Shown in pieces: positions 1,373 through 63,550 of a DNA stretch of 64,000 nucleotides. Within the stretch, counting starts at the first letter, position 1, and every line of letters begins with the position of its first letter. The notes below the pieces were generated by a model. That model did not search any database, was not told where the DNA came from, and saw only the letters and a program-made list of their open reading frames with translations. The stretch spans positions 124,001-188,000 of the forward strand of contig NZ_JAQQLE010000007.1 of NCBI RefSeq assembly GCF_028548475.1. Direction: 5' to 3'. The translations under genes were made by a program, and so were the position numbers. The stretch is from Vogesella margarita (GTDB taxonomy: Bacteria; Pseudomonadota; Gammaproteobacteria; Burkholderiales; Chromobacteriaceae).

Positions 1373-1405
1373 CTGGTATCCAACCCCGGTATCAAGGTTG
1401 GCCGC
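1373..1405. repeat. Inverted pair of uptake-sequence-like 13-mers
   Basis: An imperfect copy (GCGGCCAACCCTG, 1373-1385) faces an exact reverse copy (1393-1405) just after the asmA-like stop. It can fold into a hairpin, but no T-run follows. Confidence 0.7.
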
Positions 1406-1578
1406 AGTGCTTTATGCCGCCGGAAAACGAGGAAACCCGGCTCTCTGTGCTAACAGCATGCACTGCAGGCTGAATACCAGAGACAGTACGCTGCCGGTGG
1501 CAACACGCTGGAATGCTCTTGCGTCCCGCTCACACAGCCGTGCCACATCACACCCCGCGCCGCGCACTCCCCAAAAAC

Positions 1579-1614
1579 ATTGCGGCCAACCTTGACGCCA
1601 AGGTTGGCCGCAAT
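1579..1614. terminator. Perfect inverted pair of the 13-mer (hairpin)
   Basis: Two exact copies (1582-1594 and 1599-1611) form a 16-bp perfect stem with a 4-base loop (acgc), 25 bases beyond the kefB stop. There is no clear T-tract on either side, so termination is inferred from position and from the known use of paired uptake sequences in Neisseria. Confidence 0.6.
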
Positions 1615-1638
1615 CCGGCAACAAGTCCGCACACCACA

Positions 1639-3606
1639 CTAGCCCTGCAGCAGCAGCGCCTCCGCCTGCGCCAGTGCCGCGGGCCGGCCGAGCAGCACCA
1701 GCACGTCGCCTTCCTGCAATTCCGAATCCGCCGCCACGTGGGCGAGACGGACGTTGCGACGGCGGATGCCGCGCACCCCGACGCCGAGACTGTCCAGCTT
1801 CACCCCGCCCAGCGGCATGCCGATGGCGTGAGCACCGGCCACCAGCTGCACGCTGAGCAGGCGCGGCTGGTCGCTGTCGTCGATGCCGTCCAGCTCGTCG
1901 CTGGCGCCGCGGAAGAAGCCGGTGAACAGGCTGTAGCGCTGTTCGCGCACGGTACGGATGCGGCGCAGCACACGGCTCATCGGCACCTCCATCACCATCA
2001 GCGCGTGCGAGGCCAGCATCAGGCTGCCCTCCATCACCTCGGCCACCACCTCGTCGGCGCCGGCCTCGCGCAGGCGGTTGATGTCGGTGTCGTCGATGGT
2101 GCGCACGATCACCGGCAGGTCGCGGCGCACCTCGTGCACCATGTGAATGATGCGCTCCGAGGCGTGGGTGTCGGCAAAGGTGATCACCACCGTCTTGGCG
2201 CGCATCGCGCCGGCCGCCATCAGCACCTCGCGCTTGGCAGCGTCGCCGAACACCACCGGGTCACCCGCCTCACCGGCCTCACGCACCCGCTCCGGGTCCA
2301 TGTCCAGCGCGAAAAAGGAGATGCCCTCCGCCTCCAGCAGCCGCGCCAGCGACTGGCCGCTGCGGCCGTAACCGCAGATGATCACGTGTTCATCCTTGGT
2401 CATGCTCTGTACCAGTATCTGGTGCAGGTCGACCGCCTGCAGCGCCCAGTCCTGCCGGATCAGGCGGCTGCAGATGCGCTCGGCGTGCTGGATCAGGAAC
2501 GGCGCCGCCAGCATCGACAGCACGATAGCCGCCAGTGCCGACTGCTCCACCGGCGACGAGATCAGGCCCAGGTTGCCGGACAGCGCCAGCAGCACGAAGC
2601 CGAACTCGCCGCCCTGCGCCAGCGCCAGCGCGCCCTTCAGGCTGTCCCGCGCGCGCTGGCCGAACAGCCGCGCCAGCAGGAACACCACCGCCAGCTTGAC
2701 CGGCAGCAACAGCAGCAGCATCACGCCGATGTCGCCGGCACGGTCGAGCAGCACGCCGATGTCCAGCTTCATGCCGACGGTGACGAAGAAGAAGCCGAGC
2801 AGGATGTCGCGGAACGGCTTGATGTCCTCCTCCACCTGGAAGCGGTACTCCGTTTCCGAGATCAGCATGCCGGCAACGAAGGCGCCCAGCGCCAAGGACA
2901 AGCCGGCCAGCTGGGTGAGGAAGGCGATGCCCAGCGTCACCAGCAGTACGTTGATGGTGAACAGCTCGCCGGAGCGCTGGCGCGCCACCAAGTGGAACCA
3001 CGGCCGCATCAGGCGCTGGCCGAACACCAGCAGCAGGCTCATCACCGCCACCACCTTGAGCAGCGCGAGGCCCAGATCCATCCACAAGCGGTCAGAGTTG
3101 GCCGCAAACGCCGGCAGCAGGATCAGCAGCGGCACCACCGCCAGGTCCTGGAACAGCAGCACGCCGATCGCCAGCTGGCCGTGCGGCTGCGCCATTTCCA
3201 GGCGCTCCGACAGCAGCTTGCTGACGATGGCCGTCGACGACAGCGCCAGCGCACCGCCGACGGCAAAGCCGGCCAGCGGGCTGCCGGTCAGCCACCACAC
3301 GATGGCACCGATCAGGAACAGGGTCAGCACCACCTGCGCGAGGCCGATGCCGAACACCAGCTGCCTCATCGCCTTCAGCTTGGCCAGCGAGAACTCCAGC
3401 CCGATGGAGAACATCATGAACACGATGCCGATCTCGCCCAGGAACTCGGTCTCCTCACCCAGCGGGATCAGGTTCATCACGCCGGGGCCGGCCATGAAAC
3501 CGACCACCAGGTAACCCAGCATGGGTGGTACGCGCAGACTGCGGCACGCGGTCACCGCCAGCACGGCGACCAGCAATACCAACACGATGGGAGACAGGGA
3601 GTGCAT
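1639..3606 (-). CDS. kefB: CPA2-family K+/H+ antiporter with TrkA (RCK) domains, KefB type
   Basis: Inner-membrane cation:proton antiporter of about 655 residues. The first ~380 residues are about a dozen hydrophobic segments of the Na+/H+ exchanger fold (start MHSLSPIVLVLLVAVLAV). A Rossmann TrkA-N/RCK domain follows (CGYGRSGQSLARLLEAE, near 400), then a TrkA-C domain ending in LQEGDVLVLLGRP. This is the KefB/KefC layout, in which ligand binding to the RCK domain gates K+ efflux. A GTG at 3660 would add 18 hydrophilic residues; I prefer the ATG at 3606 because the membrane segment begins immediately. Substrate (K+ versus Na+) is inferred from family. It is transcribed divergently from kdsD. 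Confidence 0.85.
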   Translation of the reverse strand: MHSLSPIVLVLLVAVLAVTACRSLRVPPMLGYLVVGFMAGPGVMNLIPLGEETEFLGEIGIVFMMFSIGLEFSLAKLKAMRQLVFGIGLAQVVLTLFLIGAIVWWLTGSPLAGFAVGGALALSSTAIVSKLLSERLEMAQPHGQLAIGVLLFQDLAVVPLLILLPAFAANSDRLWMDLGLALLKVVAVMSLLLVFGQRLMRPWFHLVARQRSGELFTINVLLVTLGIAFLTQLAGLSLALGAFVAGMLISETEYRFQVEEDIKPFRDILLGFFFVTVGMKLDIGVLLDRAGDIGVMLLLLLPVKLAVVFLLARLFGQRARDSLKGALALAQGGEFGFVLLALSGNLGLISSPVEQSALAAIVLSMLAAPFLIQHAERICSRLIRQDWALQAVDLHQILVQSMTKDEHVIICGYGRSGQSLARLLEAEGISFFALDMDPERVREAGEAGDPVVFGDAAKREVLMAAGAMRAKTVVITFADTHASERIIHMVHEVRRDLPVIVRTIDDTDINRLREAGADEVVAEVMEGSLMLASHALMVMEVPMSRVLRRIRTVREQRYSLFTGFFRGASDELDGIDDSDQPRLLSVQLVAGAHAIGMPLGGVKLDSLGVGVRGIRRRNVRLAHVAADSELQEGDVLVLLGRPAALAQAEALLLQG

Positions 3607-5780: not shown

Positions 5781-6275
5781 TGTGCTGATCGCGCTGACCG
5801 GCCTCGTGCTGAGCGCCCCTGTCATGGCCGAAAAGGCAGACAGCGAAAAACCGATCGAACTGTCCGCCGACCGCGGCTCGATGGATCAGAAAAAAGGCGT
5901 GACGGTCTGGGAGGGCAATGTAGTGTTGGTGCAGGGCACGCTGAACCTGAAGGCGCAGCGCGTGACCGTGACCCGCGACGCGCAGGGCAACCAGCAACTG
6001 CAGGCGCAGGGCAGCCCGGTCACCTTCCGCCAGAAGGTCGACGGCAGCAGTGAATACGTCGAAGGCAGCGCCAGCAATGTCAACTACAACACTGCGGCCA
6101 ACCTTGCCACCCTAACCGGCAACGCCCGCGTCAAGCGCGGCCAGGACTCGGTCAGCGGCGCCGTCATCGTCTACAACACCGCCACCGAGACCTACCAGGC
6201 CAGCGGCGGCACCGCCGCCAGCGGCAACGGCGGCCGCGTGACGGTGATCCTGCAGCCCAAGACACAGGGCACGCC

Positions 6276-10419: not shown

Positions 10420-11242
10420 CGGCCTGTCCGGCTCCGGCAAGTCTGTCGCCCTGCGCCTCCTGGAAGACAATGGCTATTACTGCGTCGACAACCTGCCGGC
10501 CACCATGCTCACCGATGTGGTCGCGCTGTACAGCGAACAAGGCTACCAGCAGGTCGCCATCAGCGTCGACACCCGTTCGGCGCCAACGTTGGCCGCATTG
10601 CCGGAGGTGATGGCCAACCTGAAAGCGATGCAGGTCGATGTCCGCCTGATCTATCTGGAAGCCAGCACCGAAGTGCTGGTACAGCGCTTCTCGGAGACGC
10701 GCCGCCGCCACCCGCTGTCCGGCAACGGCCTGACGGTGGAGGAATGCATCCGCCTCGAACGCGAGATGCTGGAGTACATCCCCGAGCTGGGGCACCGCAT
10801 CGACACCAGCCATCTGTCTGCCAATGCGCTGCGCGCCTGGGTCAAACTACTGGTAGACGCAAACAGTGACAGCCTGACCCTGGTGTTCGAATCGTTCGGC
10901 TTCAAGCACGGCCTGCCGCTGGATGCCGACTTCGTGTTCGACGTGCGCTGCCTGCCCAACCCCTACTATGAAGTCGCGTTGCGGCCGCTGACCGGCCAGG
11001 ACGAGGCCATCTGCCGCTTCTTCGAGGGCGAAGCCAGCGTGACACAGATGCTGGCCGACATCCGCCAGTTCCTGCAAAACTGGCTGCCGCGCTTCCGCCA
11101 GGACAACCGCAGCTACGTCACCATCGCCATCGGCTGCACCGGCGGCCAGCACCGCTCGGTCTACCTCGCCGAACAGCTGGCCAAGGCCTTTGCCGGCGAG
11201 CAGGTCCTGCTGCGCCACCGCCAGCTCCCGATCAAAAAATAA
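10400..11242 (+). CDS. rapZ: RNase adapter protein RapZ (P-loop, YvcJ family)
   Basis: Nucleotide-binding adapter; in E. coli it delivers the GlmZ sRNA to RNase E and so controls GlmS. The 280-residue protein begins [15 protein letters not shown] with the P-loop at 8-15, and its conserved C-terminal domain contains [18 protein letters not shown]. The frame is open further upstream, but the ATG at 10400 puts the P-loop in the family's usual place. Whether a GlmZ-like RNA exists here cannot be told. Confidence 0.93.
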
Positions 11243-12733: not shown

Positions 12734-14216
12734 ACGCGCGCTGATCGACGCCGCCGCGCTGCGGCAGTGGGAGCAGCAGGCGGCGCAGGCCGGTCTCGAT
12801 CTGATGGCCCGCGCCGGTGCCGCCATCGCGCAGTGGCTGCGCCAGCACTACCCGCCGCCACGCCGGCTGCTGTTCGCCGCTGGTAGCGGCAACAATGGCG
12901 GTGATGCGCTGATTGCGGCACGGCTGCTGCTGACCGATTACACCGTCGGCGTATGGCAGCCGCAGCCGCCGGCCACCGCCGCCGCGCAGGCGGCAGAACA
13001 GCAGTACCTCGCTGCCGGCGGCCGGCTCGATACGGAGCTGGCGCAGCTACCGCCACCGGCACTGCTGATCGACGGCCTGTTCGGCGCCGGCCTGAACCGG
13101 CCGCTGGATGCCGGCTGGCTGGCGCACATCGCCGCACTGGACGCCCTGCCCTGCCCGCGGGTGGCGCTGGACGTGCCCAGCGGCCTTAACGCCTGGAGCG
13201 GCTGCGTACAGGGCGCCGCCCTCCCCGCCGAGCATACCCTGGCGCTGCTGTGCCACAAGCCGGGGCTGTTCACCGCCGACGGGCGCGACTACAGCGGCAA
13301 CATCGAGCTGCTGCCCCTCGACTGCCCACCGGCACTGGTGCCGGCACCACAGGGCGAACTGCTGGCGGCCAACCTTGCGCCGCTGCGGCGCCGTCACAAC
13401 AGCAACAAGGGCAGCTTCGGTTGCGTCAGCATCATCGGCGGCTGCGCCGGCATGGGCGGCGCAGCGCTGCTCGCCGGTCGTGCCGCGCTGGCACTGGGTG
13501 CCGGCAAGGTGCGCATCCACAGCCTGGATGCACGGCTGGCGCTGGACCCGCTGTGGCCGGAGCTGATGATCGCGCCGCTGGGCAGCAGTAGCCTGGCCGC
13601 CGACGAGGTGGTCGCCATCGGCCCCGGTCTCGGCCAGAGTCCGCAGGCACACCGCATTCTCGCCGGCGTGCTGGCCCATCCCGGTGCGCTGCTGCTCGAC
13701 GCCGACGCCCTCAACCTGCTGGCCGGCGACCAGGCCTTGCAGCAACAGCTGCGCCAGCGCCCGCGCCCGGCTGTCATCACTCCGCATCCGGCCGAGGCGG
13801 CACGCCTGCTCGGCTGCAGCACCGCCACCGTGCAACAGGACCGCCTCGCTGCGGTGCGCCGCCTTGCGGCCAACCTTGGCGTGATCGCCGTACTCAAGGG
13901 CGCCGGTTCGCTGCTCTGCGGCCCCGATGGCTATTACCGGCTATGCACTGGCGGCAACGCGGCGCTGGCCAGTGCCGGCCAGGGCGACATCCTCAGCGGC
14001 AGCATCGCCGCGCTGCTGGCACAGGGTCAGGACGAAACCAGCGCCGCCGGCAACGCGGTGTGGCTGCACGCCAGCGCCGGCGACCGCTATCTGGCCGACG
14101 CCGGCGGCCCGATCGGCCTGCGCGCCAGCAGCACGTTGCCGCTGATGCAAGAGCTGCTCAACCAGCAACTCGCCGCCACTGACCACGACCACCCCCACAG
14201 AAAGCCCCCGTTTTGA
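12720..14216 (+). CDS. nnr: Bifunctional NAD(P)HX epimerase/dehydratase
   Basis: Repairs hydrated NAD(P)H. Of 498 residues, the N-terminal YjeF domain (about 1-210, GSGNNGGDALIAARLL) is the epimerase. The C-terminal ribokinase-like domain (about 225-490, GAGSLLCGPDGYYRLCTGG then AGQGDILSGSIAALL) is the ADP-dependent dehydratase. This fused layout is the usual bacterial one. Two exact copies of the dispersed 13-mer lie inside, both read as Ala-Ala-Asn-Leu. Confidence 0.95.
   Translation: MPANERALIDAAALRQWEQQAAQAGLDLMARAGAAIAQWLRQHYPPPRRLLFAAGSGNNGGDALIAARLLLTDYTVGVWQPQPPATAAAQAAEQQYLAAGGRLDTELAQLPPPALLIDGLFGAGLNRPLDAGWLAHIAALDALPCPRVALDVPSGLNAWSGCVQGAALPAEHTLALLCHKPGLFTADGRDYSGNIELLPLDCPPALVPAPQGELLAANLAPLRRRHNSNKGSFGCVSIIGGCAGMGGAALLAGRAALALGAGKVRIHSLDARLALDPLWPELMIAPLGSSSLAADEVVAIGPGLGQSPQAHRILAGVLAHPGALLLDADALNLLAGDQALQQQLRQRPRPAVITPHPAEAARLLGCSTATVQQDRLAAVRRLAANLGVIAVLKGAGSLLCGPDGYYRLCTGGNAALASAGQGDILSGSIAALLAQGQDETSAAGNAVWLHASAGDRYLADAGGPIGLRASSTLPLMQELLNQQLAATDHDHPHRKPPF
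13365..13377 (+). repeat. Uptake-sequence-like 13-mer in nnr
   Basis: Exact GCGGCCAACCTTG in the linker between the two enzyme domains. Confidence 0.8.
13866..13878 (+). repeat. Uptake-sequence-like 13-mer in nnr (second)
   Basis: Exact GCGGCCAACCTTG, 501 bases after the previous copy and in the same frame. Confidence 0.8.
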
Positions 14217-15876: not shown

Positions 15877-16647
15877 TTATCCGGAAAGGTTGGCCGCAAA
15901 GTAGGCGCGCACCCGTGCCAGATCCTCCGGCGTGTCGACGCCGGCAGGTGGCGCCTCGGCCACGCACTCCACGACGATGTCGTATCCGTGCCACAGCATG
16001 CGCAGCTGCTCCAGCGCCTCGAACTGCTCCAGCGGCGCCGGGGCGAGGCTGCCGTAGGTGTGCAGCAGGCTGGCACGGTAGGCGTACATGCCGATGTGGC
16101 GATACACCGGCAGGCCGGGCGGCAGCTGTGTCTTGTCGGCGGCGAAGGCGTCGCGGGCGTAGGGGATCGGCGCACGGCTGAAATACAGCGCCTTGCCGTG
16201 CTGGTCGAGCACCACCTTCACCACATTCGGATTGAACATCTCGGCGGCGTCGTGAATCGCGTGCGCCACGGTGGCCATCGGCACCGCGCGCACCGCCATC
16301 AGCGCGGCCAGGCGGTCGATCAGCGCCGGGTCGATCAGCGGCTCGTCGCCCTGCACATTGACCACGATCGCGTCGTCCGGCAGCGCCAGCAGCGCGGCGA
16401 CCTCGGCCAGACGATCGGTGCCGCTGGGATGGTCGGCGCGTGTCAGCAGCACCTCGACGCCATGCTGGCGGCAGACCGCCTCGATGCGGGCATCGTCGGT
16501 GGCCACGATCACGCGGCTGGCGGCCGATTGCGCGGCGCGCTCGGCGACGCGGACCACCATCGGCTTGCCGCCGATATCCGCCAGCGGTTTTTCCGGCAGG
16601 CGGCTGGAGGCCAGGCGCGCCGGAATCACCACTACGAAACCGTTCAT
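15877..16647 (-). CDS. kdsB: 3-deoxy-manno-octulosonate cytidylyltransferase (CMP-KDO synthetase)
   Basis: Activates KDO with CTP for LPS assembly. It has 256 residues, beginning [20 protein letters not shown] (nucleotide-binding motif) with [10 protein letters not shown] in the middle. It starts within the stop of the Trm112-like gene (ATGA overlap). The last residues are encoded across a near-exact copy of the dispersed repeat (15886-15897). Confidence 0.96.
15886..15897 (-). repeat. Uptake-sequence-like 12-mer at the end of kdsB
   Basis: AAGGTTGGCCGC, reverse orientation, one base short of the 13-mer; encodes the near-terminal Ala-Ala-Asn-Leu of KdsB. Confidence 0.7.
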
Positions 16648-16826: not shown

Positions 16827-17823
16827 TTTTTCGTTCCAGTTGGGACAGAATCCACGCGGACAGGTCCGGCTCCAGCCGGGCCGAAACCGGCAGAACCCAT
16901 AGTCTAGCATGATTGATGCACTGCAACTTAACCGCATCCTTGGCGGTGACGATCACCGCGTCGGCATCCTGCGGCAGATCGGCAGCGACGAACTGGTGGT
17001 GGTCGGGAAAGGCGTGCGTGGCCGCCAGTTCCACGCCCAGCTCGCGCAGGGTGCGGAAAAAGCGTTCCGGATGGCCGATGCCGGCCACCGCCACCACACG
17101 CTGGCCGGCAAAGTCGGCGGCACGGCGCGGCGATAGCTGGCCGGCGGCGTGAACAAAATCGCGGGCCTGCAGGTGCTGCCGGAACTGTGGCACCGACGCC
17201 GGCAGGCGCAGCGCGGTGCGCGATTCGCCATTGACCACCAGCGCATCGGCTGCGGCCAACCTTGACACCGGTTCGCGCAGCGGGCCGTTCGGCAGCAGGT
17301 GGCCGTTGCCGACCCCACGCGCACCGTCGAGCACGACGATCTCCAGCGTGCGCGCCAGCGCGTAGTGCTGCAGCCCGTCGTCGCTGAGGATGAAACGGGT
17401 CTGCGGATACAGGTCCAGCAGGTGGCGGCCGGCGGCGACGCGATCGCGCCCCACCACCACCGGCGCGCCGCTGGCGGCCAGCAGCAAGGGCTCGTCGCCG
17501 ACCTCGGCGGCGCTGCTATGCGGTGTCACCAGCGTCGGCTGCCGGTGCGCGCCGCCGTAGCCGCGGCTGATCACGCCCACCGGCACGCCCAGTCGGGCAA
17601 AGTCCTGCAGCAGCGCCAGTGTCAGCGGCGTCTTGCCGACACCGCCGACATTGATGTTGCCGATCACCACCACCGGCACCGGCAATTGCCTGGCCTGGCA
17701 CCAGCCCAGCCGATAGGCCGTGCGCCGCAAGGCCGCCAGCAGCGCAAAAAGCCCTTCCGGCAAGGCCAGAAGGGCTGTCATCCACCACGATGGCTGATAC
17801 CAGTGCCGCTCAAGCCGGGTCAC
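16807..17823 (-). CDS. lpxK: Tetraacyldisaccharide 4'-kinase
   Basis: Phosphorylates the 4' position of the lipid A precursor at the inner membrane. Of 338 residues, an N-terminal membrane-associated segment is followed by the P-loop region [18 protein letters not shown]. It overlaps exbD by 4 bases upstream and trm112 downstream. One exact copy of the dispersed 13-mer (17252-17264) is read as the Lys/Val..Ala-Ala type of insertion in its middle part. Confidence 0.95.
17252..17264 (+). repeat. Uptake-sequence-like 13-mer in lpxK
   Basis: Exact GCGGCCAACCTTG, antisense to lpxK. Confidence 0.8.
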
Positions 17824-19228: not shown

Positions 19229-20584
19229 ATGCTTTTCAGCCAACACCAAAACGACGTCATCAGCGTCACCTCGCTCAACCGCATGGCGCGGGATCTGCTT
19301 GAAAGCGGCCTGCCACCGATGTGGATTGCCGGCGAAATTTCCAACCTGACCCTGGCCGCATCCGGCCACGCCTACTTCTCGCTGAAGGACGAACGCGCGC
19401 AAATCCGCTGCGTGATGTTCCGTAACCGTCTGAGCGGGCTGGGATTCCGCCTGCAGGAAGGTATGCAGGTCGAGCTGCGCGGTACGGTGTCGCTGTACGA
19501 GGCACGCGGCGACTACCAGATCAACGTCGACACCATGCGCTCGGCCGGTCTGGGTCGCCTGTACGAGGCCTTCGAGCAGCTGAAGGCGAAACTGGCGGCG
19601 GAAGGATTGTTCGACAATCGCCACAAGAAAACGCTGCCCGCCCACCCCGCCGCCATCGGCATCGTCACTTCGCCGGCCGCCGCCGCGCTGCGCGACGTGG
19701 TCACCACCCTGCGCCGGCGCATGCCCAGCATCCCGCTGATCCTGTACCCGACACCGGTACAGGGCGACACCGCCGCGGCACAGATCGCCGCCGCCATCGA
19801 TGCGGCCAACCTGCGCCAGGAAGTCGAGCTGCTGATCGTCTGCCGCGGCGGCGGCAGCATTGAGGACCTGTGGGCGTTCAACGAGGAAGTGGTCGCCCGC
19901 GCCATCGCCCGCTCCGCACTGCCGGTGATCAGCGGCGTCGGCCACGAGACCGACACCACCATCGCCGACTTCGTCGCCGACCACCGCGCGCCGACCCCGA
20001 CCGCCGCCGCCGAGCTGGCCTCGCCCAGCCGCGAGGCGCTGCAGCAAGGTGTCGACTACGCGCAGCGCCGGCTGGAACGCGCGCTGGGGCGGCTGCTGAC
20101 CGACAAGTCGCAACAGCTGGATTTCCTCGGCCGCCGACTGCAGCATCCCGGCGAGCGGCTACAGCGCCAGCGCCAGCTGTTGCAGGCGCAGCAACAACGT
20201 CTGGCCCGTGCCGGCAGCCAGCTGCTGCAGGCACGGCAGCGGCAGCTGGAGCAGTGCCAGCACCGGCTGCAGCGCACCCGCCCCGACCTCGCCCGCTGGC
20301 AGCAGGTGCTGGCGCGACGCGGCGACCAGCTGCGACAGCTGATACACCAGCACTGGCAGCAGCGGCAACTGGTGCTGGCGCGGCATCAGGCAACACTGGC
20401 CGCAATCAATCCGGAGGCGGTGCTGCAGCGCGGCTACGCCATCGTGCAGCAACAGGACGGCACCGTGGTGCGCTCCGCGGCGCAACTGCGCGCCGGCGAG
20501 CTGCTGCACATCCGGCTGGCCGAAGGCGAAACCACGGCCGTGGTCGGCCAGCAGCAGGGCCGGCAAAGCGAGCTACCGTTCTGA
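19229..20584 (+). CDS. xseA: Exodeoxyribonuclease VII large subunit
   Basis: Catalytic subunit of a single-strand exonuclease that works with XseB (not in this window). About 451 residues: N-terminal OB fold (ISVTSLNRMARDLLESGLPP), nuclease core (IGIVTSPAAAALRDVVTTL and CRGGGSIEDLWAFNEE), then a glutamine/arginine-rich coiled coil (about 275-395) that binds small subunits. The start is uncertain: ATG 19229 is used, but GTG 19211 or TTG 19220 are in frame and none has a clear ribosome-binding site. Confidence 0.92.
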   Translation: MLFSQHQNDVISVTSLNRMARDLLESGLPPMWIAGEISNLTLAASGHAYFSLKDERAQIRCVMFRNRLSGLGFRLQEGMQVELRGTVSLYEARGDYQINVDTMRSAGLGRLYEAFEQLKAKLAAEGLFDNRHKKTLPAHPAAIGIVTSPAAAALRDVVTTLRRRMPSIPLILYPTPVQGDTAAAQIAAAIDAANLRQEVELLIVCRGGGSIEDLWAFNEEVVARAIARSALPVISGVGHETDTTIADFVADHRAPTPTAAAELASPSREALQQGVDYAQRRLERALGRLLTDKSQQLDFLGRRLQHPGERLQRQRQLLQAQQQRLARAGSQLLQARQRQLEQCQHRLQRTRPDLARWQQVLARRGDQLRQLIHQHWQQRQLVLARHQATLAAINPEAVLQRGYAIVQQQDGTVVRSAAQLRAGELLHIRLAEGETTAVVGQQQGRQSELPF

Positions 20585-25564: not shown

Positions 25565-25587
25565 CATGGCCGTGCCGGATGCGCGTT

Positions 25588-25600
25588 GCGGCCAACCCTG
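25588..25600 (+). repeat. Near copy of the dispersed 13-mer
   Basis: GCGGCCAACCCTG, one mismatch, in the ctpA-argA gap. Confidence 0.5.
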
Positions 25601-29514: not shown

Positions 29515-29518
29515 AGAC

Positions 29519-37862: not shown

Positions 37863-37948
37863 TATAGCGCAAGGCTGTCGCCAACGTAAAGCAATCGCTC
37901 TAAGAAGCTGACGCGGGCGGCAAGGGCTGTTGCGGCCAACCTGCACAC

Positions 37949-44904: not shown

Positions 44905-45719
44905 GCGCGACAGCCCAGCGTCACCCGGTCATTGCCGGCCAGATCCTGCAGTGTGGCCACCTGCTGCAGCCCGGCCGCGCCAAACAGTGCGCGACAGGCC
45001 GCGCCCTGGTCGTAGCCATGCTCCACCAGCAGCCAGCCGCCGGCGGCCAACCTTGCCGGTGCCTGCGCCGCGATCTCGCGCAGGCAATCCAGGCCGTCGT
45101 TGCCGTCGGTCAGCGCCATGCGCGGCTCGAAGCGGACGTCGCCCTCGTCCAGATGGTGGTCCGTCGCGTCGATATACGGCGGATTGCTGACGATGGCATC
45201 GAATACCTCACCGGCCGGCAGCGGCGTGAACCAGCTGCCCAGATGAAAACCGACCGTGGCGCCAAGGTTGGCCGCATTCTGCTGCGCCACCGCCAGCGCC
45301 TCCGCGGACAGGTCCACGGCACTGACTTGCCACTGCGGTGCTTCCAGTGCCAGCGTCACCGCGATGGCACCACTGCCGGTACCGAGATCAACCACCCGCG
45401 CGCGACGGTTGCGGCCAACCTTGTCCAGCGTCGCCTCGACCAGGTGCTCGGTTTCCGGACGCGGAATCAGCACCGCCGGGCTAACGCGGAACGGACGACC
45501 GTAGAACTCGCGCTCGCCCAGCAAGTAGGCTACCGGCTCGCCGGCCAGCCGTCGCTGCGCCAGAGTGGCAAACACCAGCCATTGCTGCTCGGTCAACTCG
45601 TCGGTTGCGAACGACACCAGCTCGGCGTGGCTGAAACCAGTCACCGCCGACAGCAACATCCTCGCCTCCAGGCGGGGCAGTTCGAAATGGCGCAGGGCCT
45701 CGTTGATCATCATCATCAT
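44901..45719 (-). CDS. prmC: Peptide chain release factor N5-glutamine methyltransferase
   Basis: Methylates the GGQ glutamine of RF1 and RF2. It has 272 residues: helical N-domain (NEALRHFELPRLEARMLLSA), SAM site VVDLGTGSGAIAVTLAL and catalytic NPPY (SNPPYIDA). Four consecutive ATG codons (45719, 45716, 45713, 45710) begin the gene 3 bases after mgtE; no Shine-Dalgarno is evident, so translation may depend on mgtE. Three exact copies of the dispersed 13-mer lie within this single gene, the densest case in the window. Confidence 0.94.
   Translation of the reverse strand: MMMMINEALRHFELPRLEARMLLSAVTGFSHAELVSFATDELTEQQWLVFATLAQRRLAGEPVAYLLGEREFYGRPFRVSPAVLIPRPETEHLVEATLDKVGRNRRARVVDLGTGSGAIAVTLALEAPQWQVSAVDLSAEALAVAQQNAANLGATVGFHLGSWFTPLPAGEVFDAIVSNPPYIDATDHHLDEGDVRFEPRMALTDGNDGLDCLREIAAQAPARLAAGGWLLVEHGYDQGAACRALFGAAGLQQVATLQDLAGNDRVTLGCRA
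45043..45055 (+). repeat. Uptake-sequence-like 13-mer in prmC (1)
   Basis: Exact GCGGCCAACCTTG, antisense to prmC. Confidence 0.8.
45263..45275 (-). repeat. Uptake-sequence-like 13-mer in prmC (2)
   Basis: Exact reverse copy; in the prmC sense it encodes Ala-Ala-Asn-Leu-Gly. Confidence 0.8.
45411..45423 (+). repeat. Uptake-sequence-like 13-mer in prmC (3)
   Basis: Exact copy; in the prmC sense it encodes Lys-Val-Gly-Arg-Asn. Confidence 0.8.
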
Positions 45720-48977: not shown

Positions 48978-49427
48978 TCAGCCCTGAATCCACGGCAGGC
49001 CGTGCGCCTTCCAGCCATTGACGCGGCCGCGATGCTGCTCGGCGTCGCGATCGCCCTCGAAACCTTCCAGAATATTGTAAACCTCGGCATAACCTGCCTC
49101 TGCGGCCAACCTTGCCGCCTCGTCCGAGCGCGCGCCGGAACGGCACAGGAACAGCACCGCCCTGTCCTTGCCAACCTGCTGCTGCAGCTGCTCGACAAAG
49201 GCGGCATTCGGCACCATGCCGGGATAGGTGCGCAGCTCGACGCGCACCGCCTCCGGCACCACGCCGACAAACTGCCACTCCGCCGCGCTGCGCACGTCGA
49301 CGATCACCGCCTGCGGCAGCGACTGGCGCACCGCCCATGCCTCCGGCGGCGTCAGCGCGCCGCTGTAGCTCAGTCCCAGTTCACTGCCGCGCGACCGTGC
49401 TGTTGCCAAAATGCTTTCTACTGTCAT
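48978..49427 (-). CDS. Rhodanese-like domain protein
   Basis: A 149-residue single-domain rhodanese with an active-site loop CRSGARS (Cys95), so probably an active sulfurtransferase or sulfur carrier. The open frame continues upstream to 49646, but that extension overlaps the glnA regulatory region and is not conserved-looking; ATG 49427 has AGGAG upstream. An exact copy of the dispersed 13-mer lies inside. Confidence 0.87.
   Translation of the reverse strand: MTVESILATARSRGSELGLSYSGALTPPEAWAVRQSLPQAVIVDVRSAAEWQFVGVVPEAVRVELRTYPGMVPNAAFVEQLQQQVGKDRAVLFLCRSGARSDEAARLAAEAGYAEVYNILEGFEGDRDAEQHRGRVNGWKAHGLPWIQG
49101..49113 (+). repeat. Uptake-sequence-like 13-mer in the rhodanese gene
   Basis: Exact GCGGCCAACCTTG, antisense to the gene. 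Confidence 0.8.
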
Positions 49428-51252: not shown

Positions 51253-51272
51253 TGCGGCCAACGTTGGCCGCA
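51253..51272. repeat. Palindromic variant of the dispersed repeat
   Basis: Two overlapping partial copies form a 20-base perfect palindrome centred on AACGTT. A similar shorter one is at 32796-32810. Confidence 0.55.
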
Positions 51273-51952: not shown

Positions 51953-53026
51953 ATGCCCGCCATGACCTACCAAAACTATCCGCAGCAGTACGCCGGCCTG
52001 GAGTTGCTGGAAACGCCGGTGATGATCGTCGAGCGCAACGGCCAGCTGCTGTTCGCCAATCCGGCCTGCGAAAGCCTGCTCAAGGTTGGCCGCAAGGAGC
52101 TGCAGAAGCACTCGCTGTACGCGCTGTTCCATGACGCGCGTGCGCTGAAGAACGCGGTACAGATGGCGCTGGACCACGCCGGCAGCTATATCGAGCACGA
52201 TCTGGAGCTGGTGCCGGAAGGCGACATCCCGTTGCACATCGGCCTCACCGTGACCCCGATCGACAGCCCGCCACGTCTGGCGCTGGTCGAGCTGCGCCCA
52301 ATCGACCAGCAGCTGCGCATCGCCAACGAAGAGCGGCTGCTCTTGCAGCAACAGGCCAACCGCGAGCTGATCCGCAACCTGGCGCACGAGATCAAGAACC
52401 CGCTGGGCGGCATCCGCGGCGCAGCGCAATTGCTGGAACACGAGATTGCCGACCGCCCGGAGCTGCTGGAGTACACCGAAGTGATCCGCGAGGAGGCACT
52501 GCGGCTGCAGCACCTGGTCGACCGCCTGCTGGCGCCGCACCGCCGCCACGTCGCCAGCGACGTCAACATCCACGAGGTGCTGGAGCGGGTACGCAGCATC
52601 CTGCTGGCCGAATATCCACAGGGGCTGACGGTGCGCCGCGACTACGACGTCAGCCTGCCGATGCTGGCCGCCGACAAGGAGCAGCTGATCCAGGTGGTGC
52701 TCAACATCGCCAAGAACGCGGTGCAGGCGATGAAGGGCAACGGCGAGATCATCCTGCGCACCCGCGTCGCGCGCCAGGTCACCCTCGCCCGCAAGCGCCA
52801 CAACCTGGCACTGAAATTGCAAGTCATCGACAACGGCCCCGGCATTCCCGACGACATCCGCGACCACGTGTTCTACCCGCTAGTCACCGGCCGCGCCGAG
52901 GGCACCGGCCTTGGCCTGACGCTGGCGCAGACCTTCGTGCACCAGCACGGCGGCACCATCGAATTCGAATCCCGTCCGGGCAATACCTGCTTTACGGTAC
53001 TGATGCCGTTCGGCCCGGACCAATAA
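51953..53026 (+). CDS. ntrB: Nitrogen regulation sensor histidine kinase NtrB
   Basis: Cytoplasmic kinase/phosphatase that sets NtrC phosphorylation in response to PII. It has 357 residues: PAS domain (about 15-110), H-box with His145 in NLAHEIKNPLGGIRGAAQLL, and HATPase motifs NAVQAM, DNGPGIPDD and GTGLGLTLAQ. No membrane segments, as expected. ATG 51953 or 51962 may start it. An exact 13-mer lies at 52081-52093. Confidence 0.95.
   Translation: MPAMTYQNYPQQYAGLELLETPVMIVERNGQLLFANPACESLLKVGRKELQKHSLYALFHDARALKNAVQMALDHAGSYIEHDLELVPEGDIPLHIGLTVTPIDSPPRLALVELRPIDQQLRIANEERLLLQQQANRELIRNLAHEIKNPLGGIRGAAQLLEHEIADRPELLEYTEVIREEALRLQHLVDRLLAPHRRHVASDVNIHEVLERVRSILLAEYPQGLTVRRDYDVSLPMLAADKEQLIQVVLNIAKNAVQAMKGNGEIILRTRVARQVTLARKRHNLALKLQVIDNGPGIPDDIRDHVFYPLVTGRAEGTGLGLTLAQTFVHQHGGTIEFESRPGNTCFTVLMPFGPDQ
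52081..52093 (-). repeat. Uptake-sequence-like 13-mer in ntrB
   Basis: Exact reverse copy; encodes Lys-Val-Gly-Arg in the PAS domain. Confidence 0.8.
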
Positions 53027-53048: not shown

Positions 53049-54500
53049 ATGACGCAAGCAGTCTGGATCATTGACGACGACAAGGCGATCCGCTGGGTAC
53101 TGGAAAAATCGCTGGCGCGCAGCGGCATCGCCTACCAGAGCTTCTCCAGCGCGGACGACGCGCTCAACGCGCTGTACGACGCCACCCCCAGCGTGATCAT
53201 CAGCGATATCCGCATGCCGGGCACCGACGGCCTGAAATTCCTCGGCAAGGTCAAGCAGGAGCATCCGGCGCTGCCGGTGATCATCATGACCGCGCACTCA
53301 GACCTCGACTCGGCGGTGGCGGCCTTCCAGGGCGGCGCCTTCGAGTACCTGCCCAAGCCCTTCGACGTCGACCAGGCGGTGGCACTTATCGAGCGCGCGC
53401 TGGCGGAGAGCCGCCGCAGCGAGGCAGCCAGCGAGGACGCCGAGGCGATGCCCGCGCTGCTGGGCCAGGCGCCGGCGATGCAGGACGTGTTCCGCGCCAT
53501 CGGCCGCCTGTCGCAGTCCAGCGTCACCGTGCTGATCACCGGCGAATCCGGCACCGGCAAGGAGCGCGTCGCCGAGGCGCTGCACCGCCACTCGGTGCGC
53601 GCCAACAAGCCGTTCATCGCGCTGAACACCGCGGCGATTCCGAAGGACCTGCTGGAGTCGGAGCTGTTCGGCCACGAGAAAGGCGCCTTCACCGGCGCGC
53701 TGGGCACCCGCCGCGGCCGTTTCGAGGAGGCGGAAGGCGGCACGCTGTTCCTCGACGAAATCGGCGACATGCCGACCGAGCTGCAGACGCGGCTGCTGCG
53801 CGTGCTGTCCGACGGCCACTTCTACCGCGTCGGCGGTCACACCCCGATCAAGGCCAATGTGCGCGTGATCGCCGCCACCCACCAGAATCTGGAAGAGCAC
53901 GTCAAGCAGGGCAAATTCCGCGAGGATCTGTTCCACCGCCTGAACGTGATCCGCCTGCGCCTGCCGCCGCTACGCGAGCGCAGCGAAGACATCCCGCTGC
54001 TGGTCCGCCACTTTTTGGCGCGCAGTGCGGCCAACCTTGGCGTCGAGCCGAAGCGGCTGTCCGAGGCGGCAATGGCCCTGGTGCAGCACTACACCTTCCC
54101 CGGCAACGTGCGCCAGCTGGAAAACCTGTGCCAGTGGATCACGGTGATGGCACCGGGGCAGTCGGTGGAGATGCAGGACCTGCCACCGGAATTCCGCCCC
54201 GAGCTGGTCGCCGGCAGTGGCGGCGCCATCGAGCTGCAGCCCACCGCCGACGGCAGCGGCGTACTGCCGACGCTTGCGGGCGACTGGACCATGCTGCTGG
54301 CGCGTGAGGTGGCGCAAAGGTTGGCCGCAGGCGAGACCGGCATCATCGACGACCTCACCGCCCGCTTCGAGAGCACCTGCATCCGGAGCGGCCTCGCCCA
54401 CACCGGCGGGCGCAAGGTGGAGGCGGCCAACCTGCTGGGCTGGGGCCGCAACACGCTGACGCGCAAGATCCAGGAACTGGGGCTGGAACACGGCGAATGA
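53049..54500 (+). CDS. ntrC: Nitrogen regulation response regulator NtrC
   Basis: Sigma-54-dependent activator, 483 residues. Receiver domain with phosphoacceptor Asp53 (VIISDIRMPGTDG), AAA+ domain with Walker A GESGTGKE near 165 and the sigma-54-contacting GAFTGA near 212, and a Fis-type HTH (KVEAANLLGWGRNTLTRKIQ). Its likely targets include the two dyads upstream of glnA. It carries one exact and two near copies of the dispersed repeat, one of them inside the HTH-coding part. Confidence 0.97.
   Translation: MTQAVWIIDDDKAIRWVLEKSLARSGIAYQSFSSADDALNALYDATPSVIISDIRMPGTDGLKFLGKVKQEHPALPVIIMTAHSDLDSAVAAFQGGAFEYLPKPFDVDQAVALIERALAESRRSEAASEDAEAMPALLGQAPAMQDVFRAIGRLSQSSVTVLITGESGTGKERVAEALHRHSVRANKPFIALNTAAIPKDLLESELFGHEKGAFTGALGTRRGRFEEAEGGTLFLDEIGDMPTELQTRLLRVLSDGHFYRVGGHTPIKANVRVIAATHQNLEEHVKQGKFREDLFHRLNVIRLRLPPLRERSEDIPLLVRHFLARSAANLGVEPKRLSEAAMALVQHYTFPGNVRQLENLCQWITVMAPGQSVEMQDLPPEFRPELVAGSGGAIELQPTADGSGVLPTLAGDWTMLLAREVAQRLAAGETGIIDDLTARFESTCIRSGLAHTGGRKVEAANLLGWGRNTLTRKIQELGLEHGE
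54027..54039 (+). repeat. Uptake-sequence-like 13-mer in ntrC
   Basis: Exact GCGGCCAACCTTG, read as Ala-Ala-Asn-Leu-Gly. Confidence 0.8.
54317..54328 (-). repeat. Uptake-sequence-like 12-mer in ntrC
   Basis: AAGGTTGGCCGC, read as Arg-Leu-Ala-Ala. Confidence 0.7.
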
Positions 54501-55025: not shown

Positions 55026-55059
55026 ACAATGCGGCCAACCTCAAGGTTGGCCGCATTGT
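55026..55059. terminator. Hairpin of two repeat copies after the GNAT gene
   Basis: A 15-bp perfect stem (ACAATGCGGCCAACC and its inverse, which holds an exact 13-mer at 55042-55054), loop TCAA. It lies between convergent GNAT and usp genes; no strong T-tract. Confidence 0.7.
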
Positions 55060-58830: not shown

Positions 58831-58844
58831 GCATGTACCACCCT

Positions 58845-58881
58845 GCGGCCAACCTTGCGCGACTGGCACAAGGTTGGCCGC
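58845..58881. terminator. Inverted pair of exact 13-mers between the ATPase and metR
   Basis: Exact copies at 58845-58857 and 58869-58881 face each other with an 11-base loop, between two convergent genes. The right arm nearly touches the metR stop. Confidence 0.7.
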
Positions 58882-58888
58882 AAGCATT

Positions 58889-59912: not shown

Positions 59913-62198
59913 ATGAGCACCATTCATCTTGCCGGCTTCCCGCGCATCGGCGCCAAACGCGAACTGAAATTCCTGGTCGAGAAGTTCTGGAAAAAAGAGA
60001 TCGACGACGCCGCGCTGCAGGCCGGCGCGCGCGAGCTGCGCCAGAAGCACTGGCTACTGCAAAAAGGCGCCGGCCTCGACATCAGCCCGGTCGGCGACTT
60101 CTCGCTGTACGACCACGTGCTCGACGCGCAGGTACTGGTCGGCGCCATTCCGCGCCGCTTCGGCTTCGATGCGGCCAAGCTTTCCAGCGCGCAGTATTTC
60201 CAGCTGGCACGCGGCAACAGCAGCCAGCACGCCATCGAAATGACCAAGTGGTTCGACAGCAACTACCACTACCTGGTCCCGGAGTGGCACGCCGATACCG
60301 CCTTTGCCGCCAACCCGGCACCGCTGCTGGCGCAGATTGCCGAGGCACAGGCGCTGGGCATCAAGGCCAAGCCGGTGCTGATCGGGCCGCTGACGCTGCT
60401 GTGGCTGGGCAAGTGCAAAGGCGCCTCCTTCGACCGCCTGAGCCTGCTGCCGGCGCTGCTGCAAACCTATCAGGACCTGCTCGCGGCACTGAACGCAGCC
60501 AAGGTGGACTGGGTGCAACTGGACGAGCCCATCCTGGCGCTGGACCTGCCGGCCGAGTGGCTGGCGGCCTTCGCCCCCGCCTACGAACAGCTGGCCGCCA
60601 GCCCGCTCAAGCTGCTGCTGGCCACCTACTTCGGTGATGTCTCCGCCCATGCCGAACGGCTGAAGGCGCTGCCGGTGGCCGGCCTGCACCTGGACCTGGT
60701 ACGCGCGCCGCAACAGCTGGCGGCATTTACTCAGGGTTGGCCGCAAGACAAAATCCTGTCCGCCGGAGTGATCGACGGCCGCAACATCTGGCGCGCCGAC
60801 CTCGACGCGGTGCTGCAACAGGCCGAAGCACTGCACGCGCAGCTGGGCGACAGGCTGTGGCTGGCACCGAGCTGCTCGCTGCTGCACAGCCCGTTCGACC
60901 TGGCACAGGAAATCAAGCTGGACGTGGACCTCAAGAGCTGGCTGGCGTTCGCGGTGCAGAAGCTGAACGAGCTGAAGCTGCTCAAGCGCGGCCTGCAACA
61001 GGGACGCGCCAGTATCGAGAACGAGCTGGCCGCCAGCAACTACGCCCGCGAGCAGCGCCGCAGCAGCCCGCGCATCCACCGTGCCGAGGTCGCGCAAAGG
61101 TTGGCCGCACTGCCGGCGGGCAGCGACCGCCGCGCCAGCCAGTTCGCCCAGCGCGCACCGTTGCAACACGCGTGGCTGAAGCTGCCGCTGCTGCCGACCA
61201 CCACCATCGGCTCCTTCCCGCAGACCAGCGAAATCCGCGCCGCCCGCGCCGCCTTCAAGCGTGGCGAACTCGACGCCGCCAGCTACGAGGCGGCGATGAA
61301 GGCCGAGATCGAACTGGTGATCCGCAAGCAGGAGCAGCTCGACATCGACGTGCTGGTACACGGCGAGGCGGAGCGCAACGACATGGTGGAATACTTCGGC
61401 GAGCAACTGGCCGGCTTCGCCTTCACCGAGTACGGCTGGGTGCAGAGCTACGGCAGCCGCTGCGTGAAGCCGCCCGTCATCTACGGCGACGTGGCGCGGC
61501 CGACGCCGATGACCGTGCGCTGGGCGGTGTACGCGCAAAGCCTGTCGGAGCGTCCGGTGAAGGGCATGCTCACCGGCCCGGTGACCATCCTGCAGTGGAG
61601 TTTCGTGCGTGACGACCTGCCGCGCAGCGCGGTGTGCAAGCAGATCGCACTGGCGATCAACGACGAGGTGCTGGACCTGGAAAACGCCGGCATCAAGGTG
61701 ATCCAGATCGACGAGCCGGCGGTACGCGAGGGGCTGCCGCTCAAGCGCGGCGACTGGGCGGCGTATCTGGCCTGGGCCGGCGAAGCATTCCGCCTGTCCT
61801 GCGCCGGCGTCGACGACAGCACGCAGATCCACACCCACATGTGCTACTCGGAATTCGGCGACATCCTGCCGGCGATCGCTGCGCTGGACGCCGACGTGAT
61901 CACCATCGAGACCTCGCGCTCGGACATGGAATTGCTGCGCGACTTCGGCCACTTCCAGTATCCGAACGAGATCGGGCCGGGCGTGTACGACATCCACAGC
62001 CCGCGCATTCCGACCGAGGCCGAGCTGGAGAAGCTGCTGCTCAAGGCGCTGCAGGTGATCCCGGCCGAGCGGCTGTGGGTGAACCCGGACTGCGGCCTGA
62101 AGACGCGCGGCTGGCCGGAGACCGAGACCGCACTGCAGGCGATGGTGAACGTCACCCGGCGCCTGCGCGCCAGGCTGAACGCCACCGCGCAGGCCTGA
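59913..62198 (+). CDS. metE: Cobalamin-independent methionine synthase
   Basis: Transfers a methyl group from 5-methyltetrahydropteroyltriglutamate to homocysteine. It has 761 residues, the usual two-barrel length. Zinc ligands visible as His642 and Cys644 (HTHMCYSEF) and Cys727 ([13 protein letters not shown]). It carries two repeat copies in coding sequence: a near copy at 60734-60746 (read Gly-Trp-Pro-Gln) and a 12-mer at 61097-61108. No riboswitch is seen in the short leader, so control is probably through MetR. Confidence 0.97.
61097..61108 (-). repeat. Uptake-sequence-like 12-mer in metE
   Basis: AAGGTTGGCCGC, read as Arg-Leu-Ala-Ala in the linker between the two barrels. Confidence 0.7.
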
Positions 62199-62204
62199 CC
62201 GGCG

Positions 62205-63422
62205 TCAGGGCAAGAGCGGCGGCCACACCGGACGGCGCAGGTCCGGCAGGCCGTCGGCAAAGGCCTGCGGCCGCTCGCCCTGCAGCAGCGGCCGCAGGTA
62301 GGCGTCGAACGCCGGCGTCACTGACAGGCCGTCGGCGGCGATGTACTCCGCCGGCAGCGCGCGCTCGCGGTTGGCGACCGCCGCCAGCGGCAGCGGCTGC
62401 ACTTGCCAGTCGACGCCGCTGGCGCCCGGCTGCCGCTGCAAGGCCAGCATCACCCCGCCCTGCCCGGCCAGCGCCGTCGCCACCGCCTGTTGCCCCAGTC
62501 GATACGCCTGCTGCGCGTCCACCGCCGATACCAGATGCCGCGCCGCGCGCTGCAGACAGTCCACCAGCGCCACGTGCACCTTCACCCCCAACTGCTGTTG
62601 CAGCCGTTGCGCCAGCCACATGCCGGCACCGCCGAGATGCTCATGGCCGTACACCGCATCGGCGTGCAGCTGTGCAACGAAACGGCCATCGGCATGGCGC
62701 AGTCCTTCCGACACCGCGATCACGCAGCAGCCACGCTCCGCCAGCCGCTGCCGTACCGCCGCCAGCAGCCGCGCCTCGTCGAACGCCACCTCCGGCAGCA
62801 GCAGCAGCGGCGGCGCCTCACCCGGCAGGGCCGCCAGTGCGCAGGACGCAGTCAGCCAGCCGACGTGGCGGCCCATGGTCTCCATGATGAACACCCGCTG
62901 CTGTGCCATGCTCAGCACATCCAGCGTCACCTCGCGCAGACTGCTGGCCAGATACTTCGCCGCCGACGGGAAGCCGGGGCTGAAATCGGTGCCTTCCAGA
63001 TCGTTGTCTATGGTTTTCGGAATGCCGACCACCTGCAGCGGCAACGCGAAACGCTGGCCCAGCTGCTGCAGCAGCCGCGCCGTCTCCATCGAACCGTTGC
63101 CGCCGTTGAGCAGCACCTGACCGATGTCGAAGTGGCGCAGCACCTCGGCCAGCTGCCGCCAGCCGGCGGCATCGTCCGCGAACGGCGCCAGGATGTCGCG
63201 ACTGCTGCCGAACGCGGCGCCCGGCAGGCTGCCGAGACGGGCGATGTCGGCGGCGCTGGCGGCATCCAGATCCAGAAGCCGCCCGGCACGCAGCCCGACG
63301 AGACCGTCGGCGGCGGCGCACACCGCCACTCCCTGCGCGCGCGCGGCTTCGATCACCCCCTGGGCGGAGCTGTTGAGCACGGCGGTGGGGCCGCCGGACT
63401 GCAGGTAGAGCAGACGGGACAT
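62205..63422 (-). CDS. 6-phosphofructokinase (PfkA superfamily; phosphoryl donor uncertain)
   Basis: Phosphorylates fructose 6-phosphate. It has 405 residues, longer than bacterial ATP-PFKs of about 320. The N-terminal nucleotide loop is LQSGGPTAVLN. The donor-site motif is LNGGNGSMET (107-110 GGNG) and the substrate motif GIPKTIDNDLEGTD has Lys136. Lys in PKTIDND is typical of pyrophosphate enzymes, whereas Gly after GGN is typical of ATP enzymes, so the donor cannot be assigned. Also MGRHVGWLTA, the fructose-6-phosphate site. Confidence 0.88.
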   Translation of the reverse strand: MSRLLYLQSGGPTAVLNSSAQGVIEAARAQGVAVCAAADGLVGLRAGRLLDLDAASAADIARLGSLPGAAFGSSRDILAPFADDAAGWRQLAEVLRHFDIGQVLLNGGNGSMETARLLQQLGQRFALPLQVVGIPKTIDNDLEGTDFSPGFPSAAKYLASSLREVTLDVLSMAQQRVFIMETMGRHVGWLTASCALAALPGEAPPLLLLPEVAFDEARLLAAVRQRLAERGCCVIAVSEGLRHADGRFVAQLHADAVYGHEHLGGAGMWLAQRLQQQLGVKVHVALVDCLQRAARHLVSAVDAQQAYRLGQQAVATALAGQGGVMLALQRQPGASGVDWQVQPLPLAAVANRERALPAEYIAADGLSVTPAFDAYLRPLLQGERPQAFADGLPDLRRPVWPPLLP

Positions 63423-63494
63423 GATGCTTCTCGTGGGTGGCTATAGCCGAATTGTAGCCAGCCCCGCCGCCGCTAGCACCAAGCCGTCGCCGCA

Positions 63495-63550
63495 CAAGGT
63501 TGGCCGCAATAAAAAGGCCGCAAGCCCGGACGGGGTTGCGGCCAACCTTG
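63495..63550. terminator. Inverted pair of exact 13-mers after parE
   Basis: Exact copies at 63495-63507 and 63538-63550 form a 12-13-bp stem; the 30-base interior contains A5 and its own short GGCCGC-type pairing. It lies just downstream of the parE stop, on the minus strand. Confidence 0.65.

Follow-up and report, generated by a model that had tools for sequence, protein, structure and literature searches.

A repeated word in the window

The stretch analysed here (the window) comprises 64,000 nucleotides of the Vogesella margarita genome (assembly GCF_028548475.1, contig NZ_JAQQLE010000007.1, positions 124,001 to 188,000, forward strand). Within its genes, prmC and minC among them, and in the gaps between genes it carries many copies of a short word that is probably a DNA uptake sequence (Table 1). 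The word was first noticed as the 13-mer GCGGCCAACCTTG and was analysed further as the 14-mer TGCGGCCAACCTTG and as its rigid core, TGCGGCCAAC. The original prediction, made from the letters of the window, gave 20 exact copies of the 13-mer, and 20 were counted, 12 on the forward and eight on the reverse strand. The chance expectation, judged at the time to be far below one, was 0.00 in 100 dinucleotide shuffles of the window. The three copies placed in prmC lie within positions 44901–45719 (Pfam PrmC_N), and the positions listed for individual copies were correct apart from 49101, which misses the 13-mer by one position. At least 15 near copies had been claimed; for the 14-mer, the window holds 18 exact copies, 18 with one mismatch and eight with two. 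The 13-mer is thus a real repeated word, the boundaries of which needed correction: the true word extends further to the left, and its right end is looser than was claimed.

Genome-wide abundance and consensus

The whole genome (3,329,447 bases, 26 contigs) contained 698 exact copies of GCGGCCAACCTTG, 359 on one strand and 339 on the other, and none of the reversed control. The word is therefore a property of the whole genome, and the confinement to the window that would have spoken against an uptake sequence was not observed. The degenerate form TKCGGCCAACC occurred 1,315 times (670 + 645), approximately once per 2.5 kb, and only three of these copies were TTC. The finer analyses used a 464-kb sample, consisting of the window and 20 further 20-kb stretches of the same genome, to which the counts in this section and the next refer unless otherwise stated. 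The exact 14-mer was seen 83 times against 0.014 expected under a third-order Markov model, far above the background.

In 50 aligned copies of GCGGCCAACCTTG (20 from the window and 30 from elsewhere), the preceding base was T in 94%. The core was present 40 times in the window, with 22 of the 40 copies differing from the exact 14-mer, and 291 times in the sample (151 forward, 140 reverse), where 208 differed. Single changes within the ten core positions were found in 0–4 copies each, and changes in the tail of the 14-mer were tolerated (G at position 11 in 56 copies, C at position 12 in 18 and T at position 14 in 32). The profile of the sites, in percent, reads T 44 or C 26, TGCGGCCAAC, C 61 or G 32, T 81, T 77 and G 67, with almost flat flanks, and the consensus is yTGCGGCCAACsTTG. 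Flank alignments of the 50 copies and of the 291 sampled sites showed no additional homology around the sites. Part of the G variants are accounted for by the fused palindrome TGCGGCCAACGTTGGCCGCA, in which two cores stand back to back and which may hint at a dimeric reading of the word. These palindromes, found at 15 places (for example, window positions 51253–51272), resemble the overlapping dyads described for Simonsiella in the accessible part of PMC3630211.

Placement relative to genes, strands and neighbouring sites

Genes were called by a custom script, which left 12.0% of the sampled bases non-coding. Intergenic positions held 112 of the 291 sites (38.5%; binomial P = 9 × 10−31). The 179 genic sites made use of all six reading frames (63, 14 and 8 on the coding strand; 39, 44 and 11 on the other), in agreement with the tolerance of several frames noticed in the window. 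Opposed pairs no more than 40 bp apart numbered 42, of which 36 were intergenic. Convergent gaps held 16 of these 36, tandem gaps 19 and divergent gaps one, whereas 68 of all 286 gaps were divergent (P = 7 × 10−4), and a run of four or more T stood beside 15 of the 42. The number of intergenic pairs and the T-runs would suit a word that is primarily a transcription terminator or the site of a regulatory protein. Such a role is extremely unlikely as the primary one, since genes contain 179 of the sites, in either orientation and in all six frames, and the close opposed pairs take in at most 84 of the 291 sites, the others being single or otherwise placed. Moreover, the uptake sequences of Neisseriaceae likewise double as terminators, according to the accessible part of PMC3630211.

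With close sites merged, spacing was more even than random (dispersion of 0.51, which none of 2,000 simulations reached, vs. 0.89 in the simulations), and the same was observed in a congener with a closed genome, G059 (0.61 vs. 0.88, P = 0.011). The site density fell with falling G+C content, with a rho of 0.30 in the genome itself and 0.59 in G059. Even spacing and genome-wide spread would fit a word serving chromosome maintenance, such as a Chi-like signal, an FtsK-orienting or Ter-organising sequence or a nucleoid-protein site. In 20 stretches of G059, however, the ratio of the strands was 84:80 where the GC skew was positive and 51:58 where it was negative, so the word has no replichore polarity. 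The inverted pairs, the fused palindromes, the intergenic enrichment and the almost complete lack of pairs in divergent gaps also speak against maintenance, and Chi words are shorter than the Vogesella word. We consider this explanation very unlikely.

Table 1. Copies of the word in the 64-kb window.
Position	Strand	Form	Context
1362..1375	+	core, tail CCTG	left half of inverted pair with 1393–1406
1393..1406	-	exact 14-mer TGCGGCCAACCTTG	partner of 1362–1375 in inverted pair
1581..1594	+	exact 14-mer	intergenic inverted pair, left half
1599..1612	-	exact 14-mer	right half of pair with 1581–1594
3093..3106	-	core, tail TCTG	Na+/H+ exchanger gene
6093..6106	+	exact 14-mer	gene 5770–6279
10584..10597	-	core, tail GTTG	
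13365..13377	+	exact 13-mer without leading T	gene of YjeF/carbohydrate kinase type
13865..13878	+	exact 14-mer	same YjeF/carbohydrate kinase-type gene as 13365–13377
15885..15898	-	core, tail CTTT	
17251..17264	+	exact 14-mer	
19801..19814	+	core, tail CTGC	
21677..21690	-	core, tail GCCG	
22655..22668	-	core, tail GTAC	
25587..25600	+	core	intergenic
26920..26933	+	core, tail ATCG	
29502..29515	-	exact 14-mer	intergenic
30080..30093	+	exact 14-mer	intergenic
32798..32811	-	core, tail GTTG	intergenic
34111..34124	+	core, tail CTTT	minC
36887..36900	-	core	inverted pair with 36903–36916; T-runs both sides, terminator-like
36903..36916	+	core	second half of pair with 36887–36900
37931..37944	+	core	intergenic
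40924..40937	+	core	NlpB/DapX lipoprotein gene
42771..42784	+	core, tail CTGG	
45043..45055	+	exact 13-mer without leading T	prmC
45263..45276	-	exact 14-mer	prmC
45410..45423	+	exact 14-mer	prmC
49101..49114	+	exact 14-mer	
51253..51272	.	fused palindrome TGCGGCCAACGTTGGCCGCA	two cores back to back
52081..52094	-	exact 14-mer	
54026..54039	+	exact 14-mer	sigma-54 response-regulator gene
54316..54329	-	core, tail CTTT	same sigma-54 response-regulator gene as 54026–54039
55030..55043	+	core	intergenic inverted pair, left half
55042..55055	-	exact 14-mer	right half of pair with 55030–55043
58844..58857	+	exact 14-mer	intergenic inverted pair, left half
58869..58882	-	exact 14-mer	right half of pair with 58844–58857
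60732..60745	-	core, tail CCTG	cobalamin-independent methionine synthase gene
61096..61109	-	core, tail CTTT	cobalamin-independent methionine synthase gene
63495..63508	-	exact 14-mer	intergenic inverted pair with 63537–63550
63537..63550	+	exact 14-mer	second half of pair with 63495–63508

No Rfam family matched the window at gathering scores. Separately from the word, positions 31913–32497 (reverse strand) encode a protein of 194 amino acids with a signal-like N-terminus, probably secreted and without a Pfam match. GGDAPYM recurs 13 times in it as part of a 12-residue unit, which reads exactly GGDAPYMVARRE in 11 cases and is encoded by a 36-bp tandem repeat.

Two dialects within the Chromobacteriaceae

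The host family guessed from the sequence, Chromobacteriaceae, is correct, this being where the NCBI taxonomy places Vogesella. Among 61 genomes of the family, the TGC 14-mer was present in all 13 of Vogesella (188–657 copies) and at 0–4 copies in each of the 48 others. By this count Vogesella falls into two groups, five genomes with 601–657 copies and eight with 188–281. The low group has a looser tail but no shortage of the core: TGCGGCCAACC was found 69 times in 160 kb of G050 (V. aquatica), 40 times in 106 kb of G054 and 58 times in 120 kb of G059, and the whole genome of G059 held 1,520 copies of TKCGGCCAACC.

A second dialect, TTCGGCCAACC, differs by one base (TTC for TGC) and was first seen by k-mer analysis in two other genera. 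Counts over the 61 genomes were 957 in Gulbenkiania mobilis (G038), 968 in Paludibacterium denitrificans (G045), 902 in strain JH1-16 (G037), 655 in G046, 532 in G048, 233 in G036 and 105 in G047. In genus g2, G010 alone held 627 copies and its nine congeners 0–8. In all, eight genomes outside Vogesella were rich in the TTC word (105–968 copies). Low counts were obtained in g5 (38 and 33), in Vogesella (2–13) and in g3, g4 and g8 (1–8). Abundance of one dialect thus goes with background or near-background counts of the other. The commonest flanks of the TTC core were C before and CTTG after, most clearly in g10 and JH1-16 and more weakly elsewhere. Of the k-mer samples of 20–60 kb, only those from G038 and G048 had revealed the TTC word, and whole-genome counts added g6, g9 and the one g2 genome. 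Small samples can therefore miss the word, and g3, g4 or g8 could carry one at low density. The genera g2 and g3 are probably Aquitalea and Chromobacterium.

No other family was enriched among 399 genomes drawn over the order (13 of them Chromobacteriaceae) and 143 drawn over the class; the highest counts of TKCGGCCAACC outside the family were 30 in the order (G332, control 27) and 13 in the class. Among the matches listed, inverted pairs were carried by several Vogesella species, G. mobilis, Pseudogulbenkiania, P. denitrificans, Crenobacter oryzisoli, an Aquitalea metagenome-assembled genome (MAG), records labelled Neisseriaceae or Beta proteobacterium, and one delta-proteobacterial MAG. The Pseudogulbenkiania records with TTC pairs are contigs, among them those of strain 2002. 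The delta-proteobacterial MAG was rejected as a carrier, its pair belonging to a different, 141-bp repeat. That repeat resembles a miniature inverted-repeat transposable element (MITE), contains a palindromic TTCGGCCAACC pair and is present in identical form at L135:1215-1355 and L142:856-996.

Two further repeats were met in the family. In G040 (g8; L073-L074), another over-represented word, GACCGGTGCG, gave a weak signal, with eight copies in 40 kb vs. 0.18 expected, and might represent either an additional dialect or a repeat. In G035 (g5; L067-L068), several linked 10-mers with 48 copies each within 40 kb dominated the k-mer count and probably mark a CRISPR (clustered regularly interspaced short palindromic repeats) array.

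Conservation of sites between species

Sites were retained in other Vogesella species more often than words of the same composition. In G059 (80% identity), 14 of 27 were retained, compared with 689 of 2,996 control words, and in G050, eight of 11 compared with 268 of 1,012. Pooled over the three more distant congeners (G059, G050 and G054), the figures were 22 of 39 and 977 of 4,132 (P = 1.3 × 10−5). In the close species G052 (V. indigofera) and G053, 32 of 38 sites (control 56.4%, P = 4 × 10−4) and 25 of 28 (control 52.9%, P = 7 × 10−5) were retained. All of these comparisons draw on common sites of the V. margarita genome and are therefore not independent tests.

Sites lost in close species mostly showed one or two substitutions in place, so sites seem to arise and vanish by point change rather than by insertion. 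This, together with the absence of further homology in the flanks, argues against the relic of a mobile repeat of the repetitive extragenic palindromic (REP) or MITE type, common as dispersed repeats are; the sole mobile-like repeat encountered, that of the delta-proteobacterial MAG, looks quite different. The GGCC within the core might also suggest a restriction or methylation artefact, and codon-usage bias could produce a repeated word, but six-frame and intergenic use argue against a codon effect. Explanations of this kind are scarcely credible.

Competence genes and ComP

The genome encodes comP, comEC, comEA, dprA, a secretin gene beside comP, and pilins. A ComP-like minor pilin had been suggested as something to look for, and the protein found belongs to the ComP family (PF16732, E = 1.2 × 10−12); the best relatives in a PDB profile search were ComP chains, and the fold agrees (VIA-align). 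A ComP tree was built from 47 sequences, one from each of 47 genomes; for G045, which has a second ComP-like row, this second one was excluded. Outside the tree stand ten genomes with a match (G014, G015, G016, G019, G027, G028 and G040-G043) and four g4 genomes with no clear ComP orthologue. The 13 TGC genomes formed one clade (100/99), within which the five strict-tail genomes formed one subclade (100/98). All dialect labels together required five changes on the tree, compared with 20.3 when shuffled.

Two loop signatures accompany the word. The signatures N[TVA]Dx[GD] (beta1-beta2) and [YF][KR] (alpha1-beta1) were both absent from all 24 ComPs of motif-less genomes; 18 of 21 motif-bearing ComPs had both and three had one, the two weak g5 genomes being uncounted. 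Within g2, the corresponding sequence is NTDAG in the sole motif-bearing species, G010, and NARxD in its nine congeners. In a structure model of ComP, the signatures are predicted to sit in the alpha1-beta1 and beta1-beta2 loops. For the ComP of Neisseria subflava, the accessible part of PMC4906244 describes a response to DNA in the DD region, the beta1-beta2 loop and a small part of alpha1-beta1. The loop signature is a lead, not a statistical result. In G045, two ComP-like pilins stand in tandem (L265:9185-10137), and in the second of them the E5 usual in the pilin signal is replaced by N (FTLLN).

The word could instead be an uptake sequence read by another pilin, either the FimT/GspH-like one encoded by the open reading frame (L110:2171-2743) that directly abuts comP upstream, or another minor pilin of the contig C10 cluster. 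Neighbouring genes would give the same co-phylogeny as comP, and FimT binds DNA. A role of FimT in DNA uptake in other bacteria is named in the title of PMC8897410. We consider this unlikely nevertheless, since the ComP loops in which motif-bearing species differ from motif-less ones fall within DNA-binding loops of Neisseria ComP, and the best structural relatives of the pilin profile are ComP chains. ComP is most likely the reader of the word.

Comparison with known uptake sequences

The genome-wide excess, the equal use of strands, the genic and intergenic copies, the lack of any longer repeat and the core competence genes are those of uptake sequences as a class. The core of the uptake signal sequence (USS) of Pasteurellaceae is unrelated to the Vogesella word, and the two are nevertheless alike in several respects. 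The USS, too, is a short word present many times over in the genomes of naturally competent bacteria (PMC7811141, accessible part). A ComP orthologue is present here, whereas no ComP homologue in Pasteurellaceae is reported in the accessible part of PMC4906244; in neither the core nor the absence of ComP does Vogesella follow the USS pattern.

The DNA uptake sequence (DUS) of Neisseriaceae is more similar. The features described in the accessible part of PMC3630211 include a short non-palindromic word repeated very often, both within genes and between them; inverted pairs at gene ends, also found here; overlapping dyads; a ComP-family pilin; and dialects separable by a single base. In the same source, CTG is conserved across all DUS dialects and is required for transformation, whereas neither the Vogesella nor the TTC word contains CTG or CAG. 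A CTG does form at the edge of sites in which C precedes the core (26% of those in the 464-kb sample), but it is not conserved. Both dialect words are stop-free in all six frames, whereas all DUS dialects but one hold a stop codon in one frame (PMC3630211). The closest known receptors are the ComPs of N. meningitidis and N. subflava (2M3K, 5HZ7, 2NBA), with which the protein agrees in sequence and fold. In Neisseria ComP, the DD region is delimited by two disulfides with four conserved cysteines (PMC4906244, accessible part), and the orthologues here are without it. The word would thus act in the manner of a DUS while lying outside the set of DUS dialects, and its candidate receptor is a ComP orthologue that lacks the DD region.

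According to the accessible part of PMC3630211, Chromobacterium, Laribacter, Pseudogulbenkiania and Lutiella lack an obvious DUS. The genus g3, without enrichment of the word, may be Chromobacterium, but Pseudogulbenkiania contigs carry TTC pairs, as described above. The TTC word may already be listed in Table S1D of that paper, among the over-represented 10-mers of Lutiella nitroferrum 2002 (now Pseudogulbenkiania ferrooxidans) and Pseudogulbenkiania NH8B. In a literature search outside which most subscription journals and bioRxiv preprints lay, no publication linking uptake sequences to Vogesella was found, and PMC3630211 was the only one found that joins an uptake sequence with Pseudogulbenkiania; broader searches added no further publication on the subject among the matches listed.

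Interpretation and significance

We interpret the word as the DNA uptake sequence of Vogesella, a genus of freshwater bacteria, taken in via the ComP-type IV pilus route, with a TTC sister dialect elsewhere, and assign this reading a probability of about 0.83. The original suggestion of a distinct uptake dialect was supported, and the checks of density and spread did not contradict it. From the observed abundance, anatomy, dialect map, conservation, competence genes and single ComP clade of the TGC genomes, we infer word-dependent uptake and natural competence of the cells. The uptake-sequence family would have at least two dialects and is apparently undescribed so far.

A number of results weigh against this interpretation. 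Depletion of sites in foreign DNA was looked for, but no phage or island emerged among the site-poor stretches. The only 5-kb bin of the genome free of sites lies in the tuf-secE-nusG-ribosomal-protein operon, and the poorest congener stretches encoded, among nine proteins examined, regulators, transporters, a chemoreceptor and a glutathione S-transferase, with no phage among them. Retention was 0 of 1 in G054 (control 20 of 124) and was not significant by itself in the closer species G049 (V. alkaliphila; 19 of 25, control 61.3%, P = 0.15) and G051 (V. fluminis; 10 of 14, control 50.8%, P = 0.18) or in the more distant G060 (2 of 4, control 18%, P = 0.15). The ComP tree represents only 47 of the 61 genomes, its clades also track species descent, and the TTC genomes are scattered over it (four changes) rather than forming one clade. 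The loop signatures were picked after the sequences had been viewed, and the tree offers only 1–3 independent contrasts. Motif-less genera (nine g2 genomes; g3) have ComP orthologues too, so ComP alone fails to predict the word. Electropositive binding loops had been proposed alongside the ComP-like pilin, and net charge was rejected as a predictor of motif use, as the motif-bearing and motif-less groups did not differ (p = 0.35). Four cysteines in the soluble domain were found in none of the 47 orthologues (45 had two and two had three), so that the four-cysteine DD region is absent. No competence experiment on Vogesella was found in the literature, and V. indigofera mutants were obtained by conjugation, with competence unmentioned in the main text (PMC12826045, accessible part).

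If the word is an uptake sequence, free DNA bearing it would be bound at the cell surface by the ComP-family minor pilin in a type IV pilus, pulled in through the pilus secretin, delivered to ComEC by ComEA and, following DprA loading, recombined. Since DNA without the word would enter poorly, recombination with the DNA of kin would re-seed the word until it fills the genome. The one-base change from TGC to TTC would mark the sister dialect of Gulbenkiania, P. denitrificans and relatives, and should limit exchange between genera. For the Chromobacteriaceae more broadly, we regard as evenly balanced a scenario in which a ComP without a DD region reads a CTG-free word via its alpha1-beta1 and beta1-beta2 loops, the ancestor of Vogesella switched from TTC to TGC together with a remodelling of its ComP, and the word was lost where the loops decayed (most of g2, and g3). 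If this were true, uptake selectivity would be older than the Neisseriaceae, and the word would be able to change wholly.

Self-recognising uptake words have been described chiefly in Neisseriaceae and Pasteurellaceae (PMC7811141 and PMC1939737, accessible parts). An environmental family with two dialects one base apart, with presence and absence of the word within g2 and with a simpler receptor, would offer a way to study how such words originate, change and are lost, and would allow individual receptor loops to be matched to the bases they read. Should Vogesella and Gulbenkiania prove competent, placing the 14-mer on a construct should greatly ease their transformation.

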